The notes under the pieces are model-generated. The model worked only from the letters and a program-made list of their open reading frames with translations. It was not told where the DNA came from and ran no database searches. The translations under genes and the position numbers were made by a program. Below are positions 327 through 5,733 of a stretch of DNA of 5,733 bases, one piece after another. Origin of the DNA: Deltaproteobacteria bacterium (GTDB taxonomy: Bacteria > Desulfobacterota > DSM-4660 > Desulfatiglandales > HGW-15); NCBI GenBank assembly GCA_016926135.1, contig JAFGPH010000475.1, forward strand, positions 1 through 5,733, in the 5' to 3' direction. Every line of letters starts with the position of its first letter. The first letter of the stretch is position 1.

Positions 327-353
327 TGGTGGAGGCGGGGGGAGTCGAACCCT
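327..353 (-). other. Attachment-site remnant: 3' end of tmRNA (ssrA)
   Basis: Read on the minus strand, this segment has the typical bacterial tmRNA 3' end: the T-loop GGGTTCGACTCCC, then the acceptor strand CGCCTCCA and the encoded CCA (327-329). The outer two T-stem pairs are not complementary, and the sequence beyond 353 has no tmRNA features, so only about 25 nt of the gene are present. Integrases commonly use the ssrA 3' end as a target and leave such a partial duplicate at one end of the element while rebuilding the full gene at the other. From its orientation the element should extend to the right of this site, with the intact ssrA further right outside the window. A tRNA origin is less likely given the acceptor sequence. 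Confidence 0.7.
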
Positions 354-707: not shown

Positions 708-1922
708 ATGATTGATATCACTGAATTTTTAAGCATACAAGCCGCTCTCCTGAGTCTCGTTCCAAGAGAAAGGGCCCGCTATCTCAGGGAGAAAATAGAC
801 TGGGGTTCCCGCCTCACAGGAATTGTCGGCGCGAGGGGTACCGGAAAAACTACCATGCTCCTGCAACAGCTCGCCGAGCTGGAGGCGACCGGCAAGGAAG
901 AACTTTATCTGACGGCCGACCATATCCGCATTCAGGCGAACGGCCTTTATGAGACTGCTGCCTATTTTTTCAGGCTCGGAGGAAAGAGGATTGTCATCGA
1001 TGAGGTCCACAAGTACGCCAACTGGCAACAGGAATTGAAGAACCTATATGATTCCTTTCCCTCGGCAAAAATCATCTTTTCGGGAAGCTCGACCCTGGCT
1101 TTGCAGAAAGGAAAGGCGGATCTCTCACGCAGGGTGGTCTTTTACACCCTTCCGGGCCTCTCCTTCAGGGAATACCTCTCCTTTTCTCAGGGTGTGGAGT
1201 GGCCTCCTGTTTCCCTGTCTCAATTGCTCAAGGGGCATGTAGAGCTGGCTGCGAAGGTTGTAGAGAAAGGACCGATCCTGGGGCATTTCAAAGATTATCT
1301 GGACCATGGGGCATATCCTTTCTTCCTGGAGGGTACCGCAGGCTATGTTCCCAAACTGCTCAACGTCATCGAAAAAGTGCTGTACGAGGATATCCCCTCG
1401 GCGATCGGGATCAGGATGGCAAGCGTCCCCGTATTGAAACGGGTCTTATGGCTGCTGGCGACCTCCCAGCCTTTCACACCAAATATCGAGAAGATGTCCC
1501 GAGACTTGAAGGTCTCCAAAGAATACCTTTACACGTATCTTGACTCCCTGGAACGGGCGGGCCTCATCATCGGCCTGCTGCCTGCTGAAACCGGGTACCG
1601 GCTTGTACGGAAACCCTCAAAGATCTACATGGAGAACACCAACCTCCTCCGGGCTGTGGCCGGAGACATGGGGATGAGCACGCAGGTGGGCGCCGTGCGG
1701 GAGACCTTCTTCGCACATCAAGTCCGGAGCAGCGGCATGCACATCACAGTGCCGAATCGGGGAGACTTCCTGGTAGAAGGGAAGTTCCTCTTCGAAATCG
1801 GAGGCAAGGCAAAGAAAAAGAAGCAGATCAAGGAAGCCCCAGACGCCTATGTTGTGAGGGATGACATCGAGGTAGGTTTTGAGAGAGACCTTCCCCTTTG
1901 GCTCTTCGGGTTCCTCTACTGA
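708..1922 (+). CDS. AAA_14/DUF4143-type ATPase, 404 aa
   Basis: This is a P-loop ATPase of the AAA_14 plus DUF4143 family, common in bacteria and archaea, usually in accessory regions and of poorly known cellular role. Visible motifs are Walker A GARGTGKT (residues 41-48), Walker B RIVIDEVH (94-101, D98 and E99), a sensor-1-like strand IIFSGSST (122-129) and the family's LSRRVVFYTLPGLSFREYL segment (139-157). A winged-helix-like stretch follows at about 259-288. The C-terminal part carries the DUF4143 pattern: RETFF near 331, then D353, E363 and K367, which suggests a restriction-endonuclease-like fold. Length and the ending WLFGFLY fit an intact protein. The ATG at 708 is chosen because the ATPase domain follows directly; it lacks a good Shine-Dalgarno sequence. 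The gene has its own promoter (626-654), and its 3' end meets minus-strand ORFs. The family is fairly certain; substrate and role are not known. Confidence 0.9.
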   Translation: MIDITEFLSIQAALLSLVPRERARYLREKIDWGSRLTGIVGARGTGKTTMLLQQLAELEATGKEELYLTADHIRIQANGLYETAAYFFRLGGKRIVIDEVHKYANWQQELKNLYDSFPSAKIIFSGSSTLALQKGKADLSRRVVFYTLPGLSFREYLSFSQGVEWPPVSLSQLLKGHVELAAKVVEKGPILGHFKDYLDHGAYPFFLEGTAGYVPKLLNVIEKVLYEDIPSAIGIRMASVPVLKRVLWLLATSQPFTPNIEKMSRDLKVSKEYLYTYLDSLERAGLIIGLLPAETGYRLVRKPSKIYMENTNLLRAVAGDMGMSTQVGAVRETFFAHQVRSSGMHITVPNRGDFLVEGKFLFEIGGKAKKKKQIKEAPDAYVVRDDIEVGFERDLPLWLFGFLY

Positions 1923-2035: not shown

Positions 2036-2265
2036 TTTCCAAAGACCTGTTCGTGAGAGAGCAACTGGACACGACCTTTTCGCGCCTCCCCTCGCAGTTC
2101 AACGAGGTCTTTCCATAGTGGGGATCCTTCCTCAATCTCCCAGTCCTCCCCGGACGCTAACTTGCTGAGTTCATCGTGCACGACCTCGCGCACCACCTCA
2201 CGCAGCATCGTTCGCAACTCGCGCTTTGAGATCGTCACGGTATCGGCACTTGTCGTCTTTCCCAT
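2032..2265 (-). CDS. Antitoxin-like small protein, 77 aa
   Basis: The 77-residue product is highly charged. An N-terminal helix-forming part (KRELRTMLREVVREVVHDEL, residues 14-33) precedes an acidic linker and a tail containing DWEIEEGSPLWKDLVELR. This build, with a DNA-binding or dimerising N-terminus and a tail able to wrap a toxin, is that of small type II antitoxins found next to RelE/ParE-type toxins. The assignment comes from general pattern and recalled similar sequences, not from a catalytic motif. The ATG at 2265 has a good Shine-Dalgarno GGGAGG six bases upstream and a promoter at 2300-2328. The stop overlaps the start of a 39-aa ORF, but no proper toxin is visible, so the antitoxin may be orphaned. 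It converges on the ATPase gene and diverges from the primase-helicase gene. An unrelated small regulator is the alternative. Confidence 0.65.
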   Translation of the reverse strand: MGKTTSADTVTISKRELRTMLREVVREVVHDELSKLASGEDWEIEEGSPLWKDLVELRGEARKGRVQLLSHEQVFGK

Positions 2266-2271
2266 GGCAAG

Positions 2272-2277
2272 CCTCCC
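2272..2277 (-). promoter_or_regulatory. Ribosome binding site of the antitoxin-like gene
   Basis: On the minus strand GGGAGG lies six bases before the ATG at 2265. It fixes that start and is the best Shine-Dalgarno sequence in the window. Confidence 0.7.
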
Positions 2278-2299
2278 GTCCCTTTGGTCTTCATATGGA

Positions 2300-2328
2300 A
2301 TCGTATTTCATCTACTTGGAACTGTCAA
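2300..2328 (-). promoter_or_regulatory. Minus-strand promoter of the antitoxin-like gene
   Basis: On the minus strand a perfect -35 TTGACA (2328-2323) is followed after 17 bp by TACGAT (2305-2300), which matches four of six -10 bases. Transcription would start near 2293, giving a leader of about 28 nt. It is back to back with the + strand promoter at 2403-2431, so the two start sites are about 145 bp apart. Confidence 0.6.
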
Positions 2329-2402
2329 CGCAGGCCTTGAAGGGGAGCACACATGAGCATACATACCGATACGGGCAAAACACCCAAGAATCTATGGATT
2401 CG

Positions 2403-2431
2403 TTGACATATGATCCAAGCACCTGTATTTT
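2403..2431 (+). promoter_or_regulatory. Promoter of the primase-helicase-nuclease gene
   Basis: A perfect -35 TTGACA (2403-2408) and a -10 TATTTT (2426-2431, four of six consensus bases) are 17 bp apart. The start site would be near 2438, giving a leader of about 89 nt before the ATG at 2527. The inverted repeat at 2443-2457 lies right after the predicted start and could regulate it. Confidence 0.55.
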
Positions 2432-2442
2432 CAAAAGTAATG

Positions 2443-2457
2443 TTGCTCGAAGAGCAA
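2443..2457 (+). promoter_or_regulatory. Perfect inverted repeat just after the predicted transcription start
   Basis: TTGCTC (2443-2448) and GAGCAA (2452-2457) are perfect reverse complements around GAA. The position, 5 to 20 bases downstream of the predicted start site, fits a repressor operator or a small 5' hairpin in the mRNA. It is too far from the ATG (about 70 nt) to hide the ribosome binding site. Confidence 0.4.
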
Positions 2458-2512
2458 TCTAACGTGCTTCCATGTGTTATCAGTCCGAAGCCTGAAGTCC
2501 ATTTGGAATAGT

Positions 2513-2518
2513 GGGGAA
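2513..2518 (+). promoter_or_regulatory. Probable ribosome binding site of the large gene
   Basis: GGGGAA lies eight bases before the ATG at 2527. A second purine run, AGGG at 2521-2524, is too close to the start to serve well. The match is moderate. It supports the ATG at 2527, which is also the first start codon after an in-frame TAG at 2509-2511. Confidence 0.45.
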
Positions 2519-2526
2519 CAAGGGTC

Positions 2527-5337
2527 ATGGCAGAAGCAACCGTCCACCGCCATTCCCCGCCTGAAGCCAAGGTCGCTTTGTTCCGAAGCCTCTTCCGGGG
2601 ACGCGATGATGTCTATCCCCGCCGCTTTGAAAGCCGTAAGACGGGCAAGTCCGGTTATCAGCCTGCCTGCGGCAATGAATGGGACAGAGTTCTCTGCGAC
2701 AAACGAAGGGTCAAGTGCCCGGACTGCCCGAACCGTCGTTTTTTACCCTTAACCGACGAAGTGATCCGCCGTCATCTTTCCGGCAAGGATGAAGCCGGCC
2801 GAGATTTTGTGGTTGGCGTTTACCCGATGCTCCGGGATGAGACGTGCTTTTTCCTGGCCGTGGATTTTGACAAGGAACACTGGCAGGAGGACGCAGGCGC
2901 ATACCGGGAAACATGTTGCCTTCTGGGCCTTACTGCATCCCTGGAGCGTTCGCGCTCCGGCCGTGGCGGCCACATCTGGCTATTTTTCCTGGAGCCCATA
3001 CCTGCCGGGCTGGCACGGAGGCTTAGTGCCCACATCCTGACCGAGACCATGGAACGCCGGCCGGACATGGGCCTGGATTCCTATGACCGCTTTATTCCCA
3101 GCCAGGACACGTTACCCAAAGGTGGGTTCGGGAACCTCATCGCGCTCCCCCTCCAGAAGGAACCGCGGGAACGCGGGAACAGTGTATTTCTGGACGAAGA
3201 GTTCAATCCTTACCCCGACCAATGGGCCTTCCTCTCGACCATTCGAAGGATGGGCCGTGGCGAGGTGGAGGGGATTGTTCGTGGGGCCGAAGATCGCGGC
3301 CGGGTTGTGGGGGTGCGGCTTGCCTCAACGGATGAGGATGGCGATGCCCCCTGGACGGCGCCACCTTCGCGCTGGCGAAAAGAGCCTTCCCTCGCAGGAC
3401 CGGTGCCGGAGAGCATGGAACTGGTTCTCGGTGACCAGATCTATATCGCTAAAGACTCTTTGCCCCCAGGGCTCAGGAATCGCTTGTTCCGCCTGGCGGC
3501 GTTTCAGAATCCAGAGTTTTACAGGGCCCAGGCAATGAGGCTGTCGACCTATGGGAAGCCACGCATCATTTCCTGTGCCGAGGACTATCCCAACCATCTC
3601 GGTTTGCCGCGCGGCTGCCTTGAGGATGTGAAAGAGCTTCTATCGGATCTCAAGATCAAACCAGTAGTCCGAGACGAGCGCTTTCAAGGAAGGCCGTTTG
3701 ACGTTTCCTTTCACGGAGTTCTGCGGCCCGAACAGAGGCTTGCGGCAGAGGCGATGGGCCGTCATGATACAGGGGTGTTGTCCGCCACTACGGCTTTTGG
3801 CAAGACTGTGATCGCGGCCTGGCTCATCGCGCAACGGGGCGTAAACACCCTTGTGCTCGTTCACCGTATCCAGCTGTTGAAACAGTGGGTGGAGCGATTG
3901 TCAACATTTCTGGGGCTGCCCACAAAGGCCATCGGAAGAATCGGCGGTGGGAAGAAGAAGCCGTCAGGCATGCTGGATGTTGCCCTCATTCAGAGTGTGG
4001 TTCGAAAAGGGGTGGTGGATGACCGGGTCGGTGAATATGGTTTTCTCGTTGTAGATGAATGCCACAGGCTATCCGCACCCAGCTTCGAGCAGGTGACCAG
4101 GAGGGCAAAGGCAAGATTCGTTACGGGCCTTTCCGCCACGGTCACGCGCAAGGACGGCCATCATCCGATCCTCTTCATGCAGTGCGGACCGGTTCGATAT
4201 CGTGTGGATGCGAAGAAACAGGCCGGACTGCAGCCCTTTTCGCACACGGTCGTTGTTCGTCCCACAGGGTTTCATCCCAAGCGTGCGGCCGACCCAAACC
4301 CTCGAAGCCAATTTCATGAGCTCTATGATGAATTGGCTGAGGACCCAGCACGCAACGGGCTCATCTGCCACGATGTCATGCAGGCGTTACGCGAAGGCCG
4401 GTCCCCTCTCCTCTTGACGGAACGGACGAGCCATCTGGAACGGCTGGCGGAGATGCTTGCCACTGGGATTCGCCATCTGATTATTCTGCGAGGCGGCATG
4501 GACCGGAAGGAACTGGACGCCGTGATGGGTCAATTGGCAGGCATCCCTGAGGATGAAGAGAGGCTACTGCTGGCAACAGGGCGTTACATCGGAGAAGGCT
4601 TTGATGACGCAAGACTGGACACTCTGTTCCTGACGCTGCCGGTTTCCTGGAGAGGGACCATTGCCCAGTATGCCGGCCGATTGCATCGGCTGCATGATCG
4701 GAAGCGCGAAGTCCGCATTTACGATTACGCGGATCTCAACGTGCCCATGCTCGCAAGGATGTTCGACCGGCGTTGCAGAGGGTACGAGGCGGTCGGCTAC
4801 ACCATCGTGCTGCCGGCAAGTGCCATACCGGGATGGCCGGCCAACGTGGCACTTCCCGTCGATCCTGAATGGAAGAGCGATTACGCCGCCAGCGTCCGGA
4901 GGTTGGTTCGCGACGGGGTGGACACGCCGCTGGGGACCTTGTTTATGCACGCGACTCGCTCTTTTCCTGCTGATGCAGAAGGGGCTGATCGGGCGCGAAG
5001 CGCCAGCGAGGCATTCCTGTATCGCCGGCTGGAGACACTGCCGGAGACCGCCGGGAAATTCCGCTTGAACGCTGAGCTCCCGATTCCCTTCGACAACCGG
5101 GGAAAAATGGAGGTCGATCTCCTTTGCGCCGATGCCGGTCTGGCGATCGAGTTGGACGGTGCTCAGCACCTGTCCGACCCGGAGGCTTACCGCCGCGATC
5201 GTCGCAAGGACTTCCTGCTCCAGCAATACGGCTATTTCGTGCTGCGGTTCCTGGCAGAGGATATGGGTACACACCTGGATGAGGTCTTGGACACAATCCT
5301 ACAGACCTTGGTGAGGCTGAACCTGCATAGACCTTAA
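2527..5337 (+). CDS. TOTE-type AEP primase / SF2 helicase / DUF559-like nuclease fusion, 936 aa
   Basis: One polypeptide appears to combine nucleic-acid synthesis, unwinding and cleavage. Residues 20-80 hold a conserved N-terminal region with a C48-x8-C-x6-C-x2-C67 zinc-binding pattern. The AEP primase-polymerase module (about 85-260) shows AVDFDKE (D113, D115), SGRGGHIW (H149) and PSQDTLPKGGFGNLIALPLQ (191-210). A linker domain (about 290-390) precedes an XPB-like SF2 helicase: motif I ATTAFGKT (420-427), motif II DECH (510-513), SAT (536-538) and motif VI QYAGRLHR (714-721). The C-terminus is a DUF559/Vsr-like PD-(D/E)XK nuclease: E828, MEVD (D864), AIELDGAQH (E875, D877) and YRRDRRKDFLLQQYGY. 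All key residues are present, so it looks intact. Proteins with this AEP-helicase core are called TOTE conflict systems and are proposed to act in defence; this is recalled family knowledge, and the actual activity here is inference. The start is the first ATG after a TAG; the gene has its own promoter and overlaps the next gene tail to tail. Confidence 0.93.
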   Translation: MAEATVHRHSPPEAKVALFRSLFRGRDDVYPRRFESRKTGKSGYQPACGNEWDRVLCDKRRVKCPDCPNRRFLPLTDEVIRRHLSGKDEAGRDFVVGVYPMLRDETCFFLAVDFDKEHWQEDAGAYRETCCLLGLTASLERSRSGRGGHIWLFFLEPIPAGLARRLSAHILTETMERRPDMGLDSYDRFIPSQDTLPKGGFGNLIALPLQKEPRERGNSVFLDEEFNPYPDQWAFLSTIRRMGRGEVEGIVRGAEDRGRVVGVRLASTDEDGDAPWTAPPSRWRKEPSLAGPVPESMELVLGDQIYIAKDSLPPGLRNRLFRLAAFQNPEFYRAQAMRLSTYGKPRIISCAEDYPNHLGLPRGCLEDVKELLSDLKIKPVVRDERFQGRPFDVSFHGVLRPEQRLAAEAMGRHDTGVLSATTAFGKTVIAAWLIAQRGVNTLVLVHRIQLLKQWVERLSTFLGLPTKAIGRIGGGKKKPSGMLDVALIQSVVRKGVVDDRVGEYGFLVVDECHRLSAPSFEQVTRRAKARFVTGLSATVTRKDGHHPILFMQCGPVRYRVDAKKQAGLQPFSHTVVVRPTGFHPKRAADPNPRSQFHELYDELAEDPARNGLICHDVMQALREGRSPLLLTERTSHLERLAEMLATGIRHLIILRGGMDRKELDAVMGQLAGIPEDEERLLLATGRYIGEGFDDARLDTLFLTLPVSWRGTIAQYAGRLHRLHDRKREVRIYDYADLNVPMLARMFDRRCRGYEAVGYTIVLPASAIPGWPANVALPVDPEWKSDYAASVRRLVRDGVDTPLGTLFMHATRSFPADAEGADRARSASEAFLYRRLETLPETAGKFRLNAELPIPFDNRGKMEVDLLCADAGLAIELDGAQHLSDPEAYRRDRRKDFLLQQYGYFVLRFLAEDMGTHLDEVLDTILQTLVRLNLHRP

Positions 5338-5582
5338 TCAGTGAAAAAGTGACGGTTGGCAAAGGCATGTCCGGAGCCGGATTTCAGATAGCGTTCAAAG
5401 CGCTGGGCCTGTTCCAGGGTTTGGAAGGCCACGTACAGCTTCAGTCTCCAGGGCTTGAAGTTGTCGGTATGACTGCATTTTCCTCTATTGTGCTCTTTCA
5501 GGCGGGCTTTCAGATCGGATGTGTGGCCAACATAACGTTCACCGGGTTTTGTTTCGCTTTCCAGGATGTAAGTGTAGTACAT
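5334..5582 (-). CDS. Small GIY-YIG nuclease-domain protein, 82 aa
   Basis: The product is a stand-alone GIY-YIG domain of the short kind often annotated as a GIY-YIG or excinuclease-like protein. The paired motifs are YTY (residues 3-5) and YVG (17-19). They are followed by R27 and H31 in LKARLKEHN, E63 in the helix AQRFERYLKSGSG, and N76 near the C-terminus, which match the conserved catalytic and metal-binding positions. The length fits the minimal domain. The ATG at 5582 is chosen because the domain begins there; the frame stays open 50 codons further upstream to 5732, but that part (residues VNRLVHFAHELRMAGR and beyond) carries no domain. No clear Shine-Dalgarno sequence precedes the ATG. 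The gene converges on the large primase-helicase gene, and their stop codons overlap. Whether it is a working nuclease, and on what DNA, is not known; such genes are often repeated within genomes. Confidence 0.85.
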   Translation of the reverse strand: MYYTYILESETKPGERYVGHTSDLKARLKEHNRGKCSHTDNFKPWRLKLYVAFQTLEQAQRFERYLKSGSGHAFANRHFFTD

Positions 5583-5624
5583 GGAGGCGACCGGTGGAGA
5601 CTGGCACTGCGATAGAAAGACAAA

Positions 5625-5653
5625 GTCCTCCTTCGCACAAGGCTTCGGAGGAC
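5625..5653. repeat. 7-bp inverted repeat upstream of the GIY-YIG gene
   Basis: GTCCTCC (5625-5631) and GGAGGAC (5647-5653) are perfect reverse complements around a 15-nt loop. On the minus strand the inner arm reads AAGGAGG, a textbook Shine-Dalgarno core. It lies more than 40 nt before the ATG at 5582 and has no suitable start codon behind it, so it is more likely part of a structured element. Confidence 0.5.
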
Positions 5654-5659
5654 ACCATC

Positions 5660-5718
5660 CTTCGCTCGTTCCCTCTCTTCGGCCTGCCATCCGTAGCTCG
5701 TGAGCGAAGTGAACGAGC
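5660..5718. repeat. Nested inverted repeats at the right end of the window
   Basis: CTTCGCTC (5660-5667) pairs with GAGCGAAG (5702-5709), and the overlapping GCTCGTTC (5664-5671) pairs with GAACGAGC (5711-5718). GCTCGTGAGC (5696-5705) is itself a small hairpin sequence, and GCTCGT (5696-5701) also matches ACGAGC (5713-5718). Several alternative foldings therefore share the same bases, as in REP-like or other dispersed structured elements. The segment lies 78-136 bp upstream of the GIY-YIG start and may travel with it. Confidence 0.5.
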
Positions 5719-5733
5719 CTATTGACTCGCATC

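Follow-up and report, generated by a model that had tools for sequence, protein, structure and literature searches.

The locus described here raises the question of what a bacterium, or a mobile element within it, gains from a single protein predicted to prime, unwind and cut DNA. The window, a 5.7-kb stretch (5,733 nucleotides) of contig JAFGPH010000475.1 from a Deltaproteobacteria bacterium, was analysed around an open reading frame (ORF) that starts with ATG and encodes 936 residues. The initial annotation had presented this ORF as a TOTE-type primase-helicase-nuclease in an island. We find that the chain almost certainly joins an archaeo-eukaryotic primase-polymerase (AEP), an XPB-type superfamily 2 (SF2) helicase and a DUF559/Vsr-type nuclease. 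As judged from its modelled domains, this large enzyme could probably start DNA copying, separate strands and cut DNA. With about even confidence, we read it as a stand-alone, horizontally moving predicted DNA-processing enzyme that would protect its host against incoming or replicating foreign DNA.

Domain architecture and active sites

Each of the three domains was recognised by Pfam: the AEP-TOTE model PF22548 matched residues 15–248 (E 5.1e-95, 317.9 bits against a cut-off of 27), ResIII (PF04851) matched residues 399–540 (E 2.1e-18) and DUF559 (PF04480) matched residues 859–928 (E 7.1e-11). The scores reached with two NCBIfam models were far below their cut-offs, namely 75.9 bits against 200 for the CRISPR-associated PrimPol (CAPP) model and 53.9 bits against 610 for the XPB equivalog model. 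Therefore, the 936-residue protein is a relative of both families and an ortholog of neither. By sequence, relatives of the helicase part in the PDB include XPBII, RAD25 and RadD, and CAPP structures match the primase domain (E 6e-13). A profile of the C-terminal region matched the DUF559 protein NGO0050 (3hrl) at 3.6e-8 and I-Bth0305I at 0.058. Structure prediction was then compared with known folds. The AEP-domain model matched CAPP (7nqd/7nqe) with TM-scores of 0.78–0.80, normalised by target length, and the helicase model matched XPB. The nuclease model showed fold matches to NGO0050, I-Bth0305I and Vsr, with weaker ones to a chain of the XPB-Bax1 complex and to TnsA, while Foldseek by itself returned no match for this model under an E-value of 0.001. 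The region between primase and helicase core is called DRD-like here, after what we take to be the corresponding part of XPB.

Conservation was measured in 48 aligned sequences for the primase, the helicase and the zinc motif, and in 66 C-terminal sequences for the nuclease. In the primase domain, D113, D115 and D187 are invariant, as is the SRSGxGGH block (S142, R143, S144, G145, G147, H149). D113/D115 and H149 align with their CAPP counterparts, and we take them to be the DxD motif and the motif II histidine, respectively. In the helicase, K426 of the Walker A sequence (T422-A-F-G-K426-T427), D510 and E511 of the DECH box (D510-E-C-H513), A537 and T538 of the SAT block, and the Q714-Y-x-G717-R-L-H-R721 motif are all invariant; S536 of the SAT block is at least 90% conserved. 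The nuclease has three invariant residues, E862, E875 and D877, and four that are conserved at 90% or above (E828, D864, Q880, H881). Finally, C48, C57, C64 and C67 are each at least 90% conserved, as would be expected of a zinc knuckle.

All three enzymatic parts appear to be maintained by purifying selection, as judged from sequence comparison of seven pairs of relatives (Nei-Gojobori method). The ratio of nonsynonymous to synonymous substitution rates (dN/dS) was 0.120–0.221 in the primase, 0.085–0.247 in the helicase, 0.063–0.242 in the nuclease and 0.152–0.307 in the DRD-like part. Only the 55-residue linker preceding the nuclease gave a higher value, up to 0.77 in one pair.

A protein search returned at least 7,999 scored candidates, all passing an E-value of 1e-3. 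Among the matches listed, 120 relatives are 72–85% identical to the query; PF22548, PF04851 and PF04480 are found in every one of them, while further domains vary. Some of the best relatives were found on contigs of 41–68 kb. The three-domain chain is therefore no chance product. Overall, profile searches and structure prediction recovered the AEP, helicase and nuclease folds that the initial annotation had deduced from a DxD and an SGRGGH-type motif, from ATTAFGKT, DECH, SAT and QYAGRLHR, and from likely DUF559-like catalytic residues. Its zinc-binding pattern agrees with the cysteine conservation, and the cysteines may indeed bind zinc.

Distribution, island setting and relocation

To describe the distribution of the gene, 80 of at least 575 genome loci encoding a relative were sampled. 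They belong to Verrucomicrobiota, Acidobacteriota, Planctomycetota, Pseudomonadota and other phyla. The best match extends to residue 900 or beyond in 73 of the 80 loci and ends at residues 760–769 in L077–L080 (L and G numbers are our handles for loci and genomes). It is shorter in L048, L068 and L074, in L068 because the contig ends there. In a FastTree tree of 100 rows, with a root placed for drawing only, all rows matching past residue 900 form, together with L048, L068 and L074, one group of 78 rows with 99% local support. The 22 nuclease-less rows, from plasmids, viral contigs and Chloroflexota/Desulfaltia, fall outside this group. The simplest reading of the tree is a single gain of the nuclease by fusion. 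The tree contains 16 phylum changes, as compared to a minimum of 8 and a shuffled mean of 43; thus, the relatives cluster by phylum and have probably also been transferred horizontally. In the phylum of one deltaproteobacterial carrier, PF22548 was found in 35 of 148 genomes, at 39 places. Eleven of the corresponding frames have 795–847 residues, too short for the nuclease, 3 have 944–1068 and 25 have 136–724. The AEP domain is therefore present in several architectures.

Full-length copies were not found in phages. A tblastn search of 50,697 phage records gave 587 with a match and none at 80% coverage, the listed matches being to the helicase part only. A second query matched 1,101 records, again with none at 80% coverage. 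Seven loci came from IMG/VR. Six of them match only to residue 754–765 and one, L105, is full length; this copy is probably chromosomal, as it shares 98.7% DNA identity, flanks included, with the genome locus L075.

Presence of the gene is patchy even within a genus. In Accumulibacter (28 genomes), 11 genomes have a match at E 1e-20 and 17 have none. Eight of the 11 matches are full length, one is cut by a contig end, one is split into three frames and one is a remnant. The full-length copies occupy at least four contexts whose flanks are not shared. Copies in context A (G036, G004, G031) and those in context B (G033, G034) are 90–93% identical in DNA over a unit that begins about 50 bp before the start codon and ends a few bases after the stop codon; outside this unit, the only match is one of 58 bp, at 78% and at a differing relative position. 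The distance between the two blocks that flank the gene in context A is 3.7 kb in G036, but 169 bp in G040 and 237 bp in G033, whose own copy is in context B. In G026, a genome in which no copy was found, it reaches 5.8 kb. No terminal repeats or target-site duplications were seen by eye around the Accumulibacter copies and further relatives, and the inverted repeats around the gene of the window look like chance. Two further observations were made in this genus. In L099, a palindromic insert of about 120 bp, noted by eye, lies between the promoter-like sequence and the start codon. In L009, a helicase fragment (13630–13702; G005 contig C111, 139995–140114) covering residues 415–454 at 78% lies downstream of an intact copy, at a distance of about 0.8 kb.

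The comparison of flanks was extended to 13 pairs of the nuclease clade with at least 80% DNA identity, a flank match being defined as at least 400 bp at 80%. In 11 of the 13 pairs no flank match was present, and the two exceptions (L055/L056 and L075/L105) are near-identical records; most pairs are just 81–86% identical, so that old common flanks may have decayed, and the pairs at 86–91% are more informative. Among these, L022/L042 cease to be similar some 45 bp before the gene and close to its stop codon. L035/L036 remain similar over at least 160 bp upstream, where a contig ends, and for some 20 bp beyond the stop. Nuclease-less plasmid pairs often have longer common flanks, such as 8.3 kb in L113/L118. 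Overall, the gene seems to move between genomes by itself, although each relocation could equally reflect ordinary recombination within islands.

Broken copies also occur. Six small N-terminal fragments from other genomes, considered as a possible separate gene, look like remnants, and two of these have lost large internal parts. L102 (about 4861–5222) retains residues 15–87 followed by 716–761, and L147 (about 1172–2225) retains residues 6–64 followed by 463–760.

The window itself carries signs of an island. A 26-base sequence upstream of the gene matches the 3′ end of an ssrA (tmRNA) gene at 25 positions. The tmRNA covariance model scored 19.2 bits there, below its gathering score of 47 (E 4.9e-6 in a 321-base search), and no intact tRNA or tmRNA gene is present in the window. 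The 3′ end of this remnant is directed to lower coordinates; an island inserted there would therefore, by the usual geometry of ssrA islands, occupy the higher coordinates, on the side of the gene. Neither an integrase nor a second attachment repeat was seen in the 5.7 kb, and the other end of the island falls outside. An acidobacterial relative, 69% identical, shows a comparable arrangement (L015, gene at 9995–12850). An intact ssrA gene lies there at 6119–6472, with copies of its end at 6599 (22/26) and 13145 (21/26). The stretch from ssrA to the distal copy encodes a helix-turn-helix protein (in one cluster with an AbiEi_2 protein from L018) and a nucleotidyltransferase-like protein, besides the gene itself; no integrase was recognised among the three proteins of this island that were scanned.

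Scanning for ssrA ends with up to five mismatches gave seven sites in the 1.04 Mb made up by the window and the 80 loci: one in the window, three in L015 and one each in L010, L047 and L070, those of L010 and L047 being tRNA ends. One site (L125) was found in 20 control stretches totalling 0.38 Mb, and none in shuffled loci. Of 60 loci scanned, 10 contain tRNA or tmRNA genes, an uncontrolled count; in L004, L054 and L073 these lie no more than about 200 bp from the gene. The island reading is supported. The initial annotation was thus right about an adjacent ssrA attachment site, here a remnant, and about a mobile setting, for which a second ssrA-bounded relative and the differing contexts in one genus also speak. 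It had named confinement of close homologs to conserved core-genome contexts as evidence to the contrary; what we observed is patchy presence and differing contexts within a single genus.

Neighbouring genes and the TOTE label

The features of the window are collected in Table 1. The promoter-like match is weak, since three such sites were seen in positions 2260–5733 as compared to 1.2 expected. The neighbouring genes of the window were each considered as partners. The upstream ATPase matches the PADLOC candidate defence family PDC-S01 (4.2e-25), and distant homologs (E 1e-4) were found in just 3 of the 80 related loci (L004, L018, L059), directly upstream of the gene in L004 (8762–9961). For the downstream GIY-YIG protein and for a small ORF at 2032–2265, no homolog was found in the 80 loci. 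In L144, a GIY-YIG-like ORF, recognised by eye, lies immediately upstream of a remnant of the gene.

Table 1. Position of the gene, its domains and the other features of the window
Feature	Position	Strand	Evidence
Remnant of ssrA (tmRNA) 3′ end, likely attachment-site duplicate	327..352	-	25/26 match to the ssrA end of L015
AAA_14 + DUF4143 ATPase, PADLOC PDC-S01-like, upstream neighbour	708..1922	+	Pfam, PADLOC
Sigma-70-like promoter match, TTGACA-17-TATTTT, 10 of 12	2403..2431	+	Motif match, weak
Coding sequence, 936 residues, AEP primase-polymerase + XPB-type SF2 helicase + DUF559/Vsr-type nuclease	2527..5337	+	ORF, Pfam, models, fold matches
AEP (PrimPol) domain, residues 15–248; D113, D115, H149, D187	2569..3270	+	PF22548, CAPP alignment, Foldseek
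Putative zinc knuckle, C48-C57-C64-C67	2668..2727	+	Cysteine conservation; zinc binding predicted
DRD-like region, residues 276–390, aligned with the XPB part preceding the helicase core	3352..3696	+	
SF2 helicase core, residues 391–765; Walker A K426, DECH 510–513, QYAGRLHR 714–721	3697..4821	+	PF04851, PDB sequence matches, motifs
DUF559/Vsr-type PD-(D/E)xK nuclease, residues 825–930; E828, E862, D864, E875, D877, Q880, H881	4999..5316	+	
GIY-YIG protein, downstream neighbour, tail-to-tail, 4-bp overlap with the end of the gene	5334..5732	-	ORF, Pfam

A search for a recurrent partner was performed by clustering the ORFs around the gene in the window and the 80 genome loci. No neighbour family occurred in more than 4 of these 81 loci, and the first four-locus cluster consists, as judged by position, of fragments of broken copies of the gene itself. 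Overall, these sequence comparisons suggest that the gene stands alone, without a conserved partner.

We then asked which families lie beside the gene. The immediate neighbours of 110–900 residues were scanned; 127 passed this filter and 122 were kept after five gene fragments were removed by hand. The control was made up of 122 proteins encoded at least 3 kb from the gene on the same contigs (20 stretches, 20 genomes). Seventeen families had two or more members among the neighbours, with AbiEii (4), sigma-70 regions 2 and 4 (3 each), PIN (3), and ParE, AlbA_2 and the integrase arm domain (2 each). In the control, 11 families had two members, and none of them is a defence or toxin-antitoxin family. 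At 1e-10, 88 PADLOC models were matched in the neighbour set versus 42 in the control, these being counts of models, not of genes. The surplus of defence and toxin-antitoxin genes near the gene looks real but modest.

The term TOTE stands for TPR, OB, TBP and Effector (PMC12458937). The primase domain, which lies far above the AEP-TOTE cut-off, justifies the TOTE-type label proposed by the initial annotation. Membership of a TOTE system is not supported: no TBP was found by Pfam in the four window proteins scanned, and TPR, CSD and TBP models were absent from the neighbours in the window and each matched no more than one of the 122 flanking genes. The 24 carrier genomes searched for TBP (PF00352) at E 1e-3 gave no match, although a very divergent TBP could escape such a search; control matches were obtained in 4 of 14 genomes, all four of them archaea. 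As these partners were not found near the relatives, nor TBP in the carriers, the label fits the primase domain only and the protein should not be classified as a member of such a system. Similarly, no CRISPR-like repeat array or cas gene was found in the window, and no cas family is among those that recur at least twice in the 122 neighbours.

Candidate functions

How could such a protein protect its host? The fold of the XPB-type motor suggests that it would load on forks, junctions or otherwise distorted DNA and translocate. From its relation to CAPP, the PrimPol domain may start or extend DNA synthesis on exposed single strands, yielding double-stranded stretches. The C-terminal Vsr/DUF559 nuclease, by its fold and conserved residues, would nick or cut the processed DNA. 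The helicase-nuclease half could thus work as XPB-Bax1 does, in one chain and with a primase added. We favour action against invading DNA because of the folds, the conserved active sites, the purifying selection, the lack of a conserved partner, the island setting and the relocation without neighbours. The patchy presence, the AbiEii, PIN, ParE and AlbA_2 neighbours, the ssrA-bounded L015 and the absence of phage records matching more than 80% of the length point in the same direction.

Several observations weigh against a protective role. The defence signal is modest, with 13 matches to the listed families in 122 neighbours, and the control set itself includes BREX-type and type IIG genes as single matches. 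No conserved toxin, sensor or modification gene lies nearby, so that the sparing of self-DNA is unexplained. Recombinase or transposase genes adjoin nuclease-less relatives on plasmids, as detailed below, and some probability, albeit small, goes to a repair role for the host.

Known systems resemble the protein in part. Like CAPP of the CAPP-Helicase type and its non-CRISPR relatives, it has an AEP catalytic domain followed by a helicase; CAPP proper is linked to CRISPR, of which no array or cas gene was seen in the window; the gene described here is not in an operon, and the DUF559/Vsr-type nuclease is an addition. TOTE systems share the PF22548 primase domain, but their TPR, OB/CSD and TBP partners were not found here. 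In archaeal XPB-Bax1 (6p4o, 6p4f), helicase and nuclease are two proteins and the primase is lacking; moreover, the nuclease described here is closer to DUF559, I-Bth0305I and Vsr than to that of the XPB-Bax1 pair. With Vsr, DUF559 proteins and I-Bth0305I, the likeness is one of nuclease domains: here, this domain is part of a helicase-primase chain, and no recognition of mismatches or homing sites is claimed. The PrimPol of Thermus ICETh2 (Ppol) offers a parallel for defence against environmental DNA (PMC7693054). It is likewise a PrimPol of a mobile, tRNA-bounded element, and is associated both with a helicase and with interference against DNA that enters the cell; the helicase is encoded by a separate gene, no fused nuclease is described in the passages covered, and the likeness holds only at the level of the AEP superfamily.

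A possible alternative, to which we give limited weight, is that the AEP-helicase core serves mobile elements by helping in copying, gap filling or repair at recombination or integration intermediates. It draws on the plasmid branch. The nuclease-bearing form was not found on plasmids, all matches ending by residue 801 in the 60 listed of 199 plasmid records. Twenty-four plasmid stretches were hand-picked from these matches and 23 were annotated, many of the plasmids being related and the count uncontrolled. In 12 of the 23, recombinase, TniQ or transposase genes lie beside the nuclease-less gene. Tyrosine recombinases or an integrase adjoin it in eight (in three with one small gene between), TniQ adjoins it in three, and in one it is flanked by a recombinase-family gene and a Tn3 transposase. 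For instance, in seven alphaproteobacterial plasmids (L113, L114, L117, L118, L121, L156, L157), the AEP-helicase adjoins three consecutive tyrosine recombinase genes, with a DUF736 gene in between in L114 and L121. On a Sphingobium plasmid (L112, 2029–10298), an apparent operon comprises a TnsA-like gene (weak, E 0.0084), a transposase, TniB, TniQ and, last, the nuclease-less AEP-helicase, which overlaps TniQ by 4 bp. CAPP relatives, moreover, adjoin Cas1-Cas2, and a 2021 study described AEP-helicase proteins encoded away from CRISPR loci as a typical component of mobile elements (PMC8211822). However, 11 of the 23 stretches have no such pair or set, and the neighbours there are phage-like genes, genes of toxin-antitoxin systems, of restriction or of conjugation, or an insertion sequence; several of the 12 are closely related. 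For the nuclease clade, the integrase arm domain occurs in just 2 of the 122 immediate neighbours, and the Thermus PrimPol was reported to be dispensable for the replication of its element (PMC7693054). A separate observation comes from an Aeromonas plasmid (L160, 5039–14187), in which the AEP-helicase has an NYN/LOTUS-domain protein on one side and, on the other, a WYL protein and then type I restriction genes.

Host DNA repair or damage tolerance, in the manner of XPB-Bax1 and with repriming by the PrimPol domain, is unlikely. PrimPol domains elsewhere serve damage tolerance, the helicase is closest to XPB, and the nuclease is similar in fold to Vsr and, to a lesser degree, to the XPB-Bax1 chain. 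However, the patchy presence within a genus, the differing contexts, the decayed copies with large internal deletions (L102, L147) and the lack of a recurrent neighbour family argue for an accessory gene.

It is very unlikely that the gene is a self-relocating single-gene element, whose primase-polymerase, translocase and nuclease, the last resembling homing endonucleases, would together cut a target and copy the gene into it, from promoter to stop codon, without transposase, integrase or terminal repeats. The shared unit, which runs from about the -10 box to about the stop codon in Accumulibacter contexts A and B and in L022/L042, would fit, as would a nuclease fold near I-Bth0305I and, more weakly, TnsA. 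In such a scheme, and with the same small probability, the nuclease-less plasmid branch would have given cutting and joining to recombinase trios, TniABQ or Cas1-Cas2. Against it, no target-site pattern or end motif was seen, and L035/L036 share their upstream 160 bp or more.

Finally, a true TOTE effector with its TPR-OB-TBP partners beyond the window is hardly credible, the high PF22548 score being outweighed by the carrier genomes without TBP, by the near absence of TPR, CSD and TBP models from the flanking genes and by the lack of any family recurring in more than 4 of 81 loci.

Overall, protection of the host against foreign DNA is the reading that we retain, for what appears from sequence to be an accessory gene. 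Relatives already appear in databases under the labels "helicase / very-short-patch-repair endonuclease" or TOTE primase-domain protein. Among the papers listed by searches of the open-licence literature, the only literature covered, none on the primase-helicase-nuclease chain was found, which fits the initial view of a little-studied biochemistry, although the primase relative CAPP is better studied, with solved structures. Relatives are very common, with at least 7,999 scored proteins, yet the three-domain chain is without a paper found there. For annotation, the lesson is that a TOTE-derived name does not by itself place a gene in such a system. With priming, unwinding and cutting predicted in one molecule, the protein may give a handle on whether primase-polymerases act in defence, and the comparison of a nuclease-fused genome branch with a nuclease-less plasmid branch would offer a route to ask whether PrimPol-helicases protect cells or serve mobile elements.

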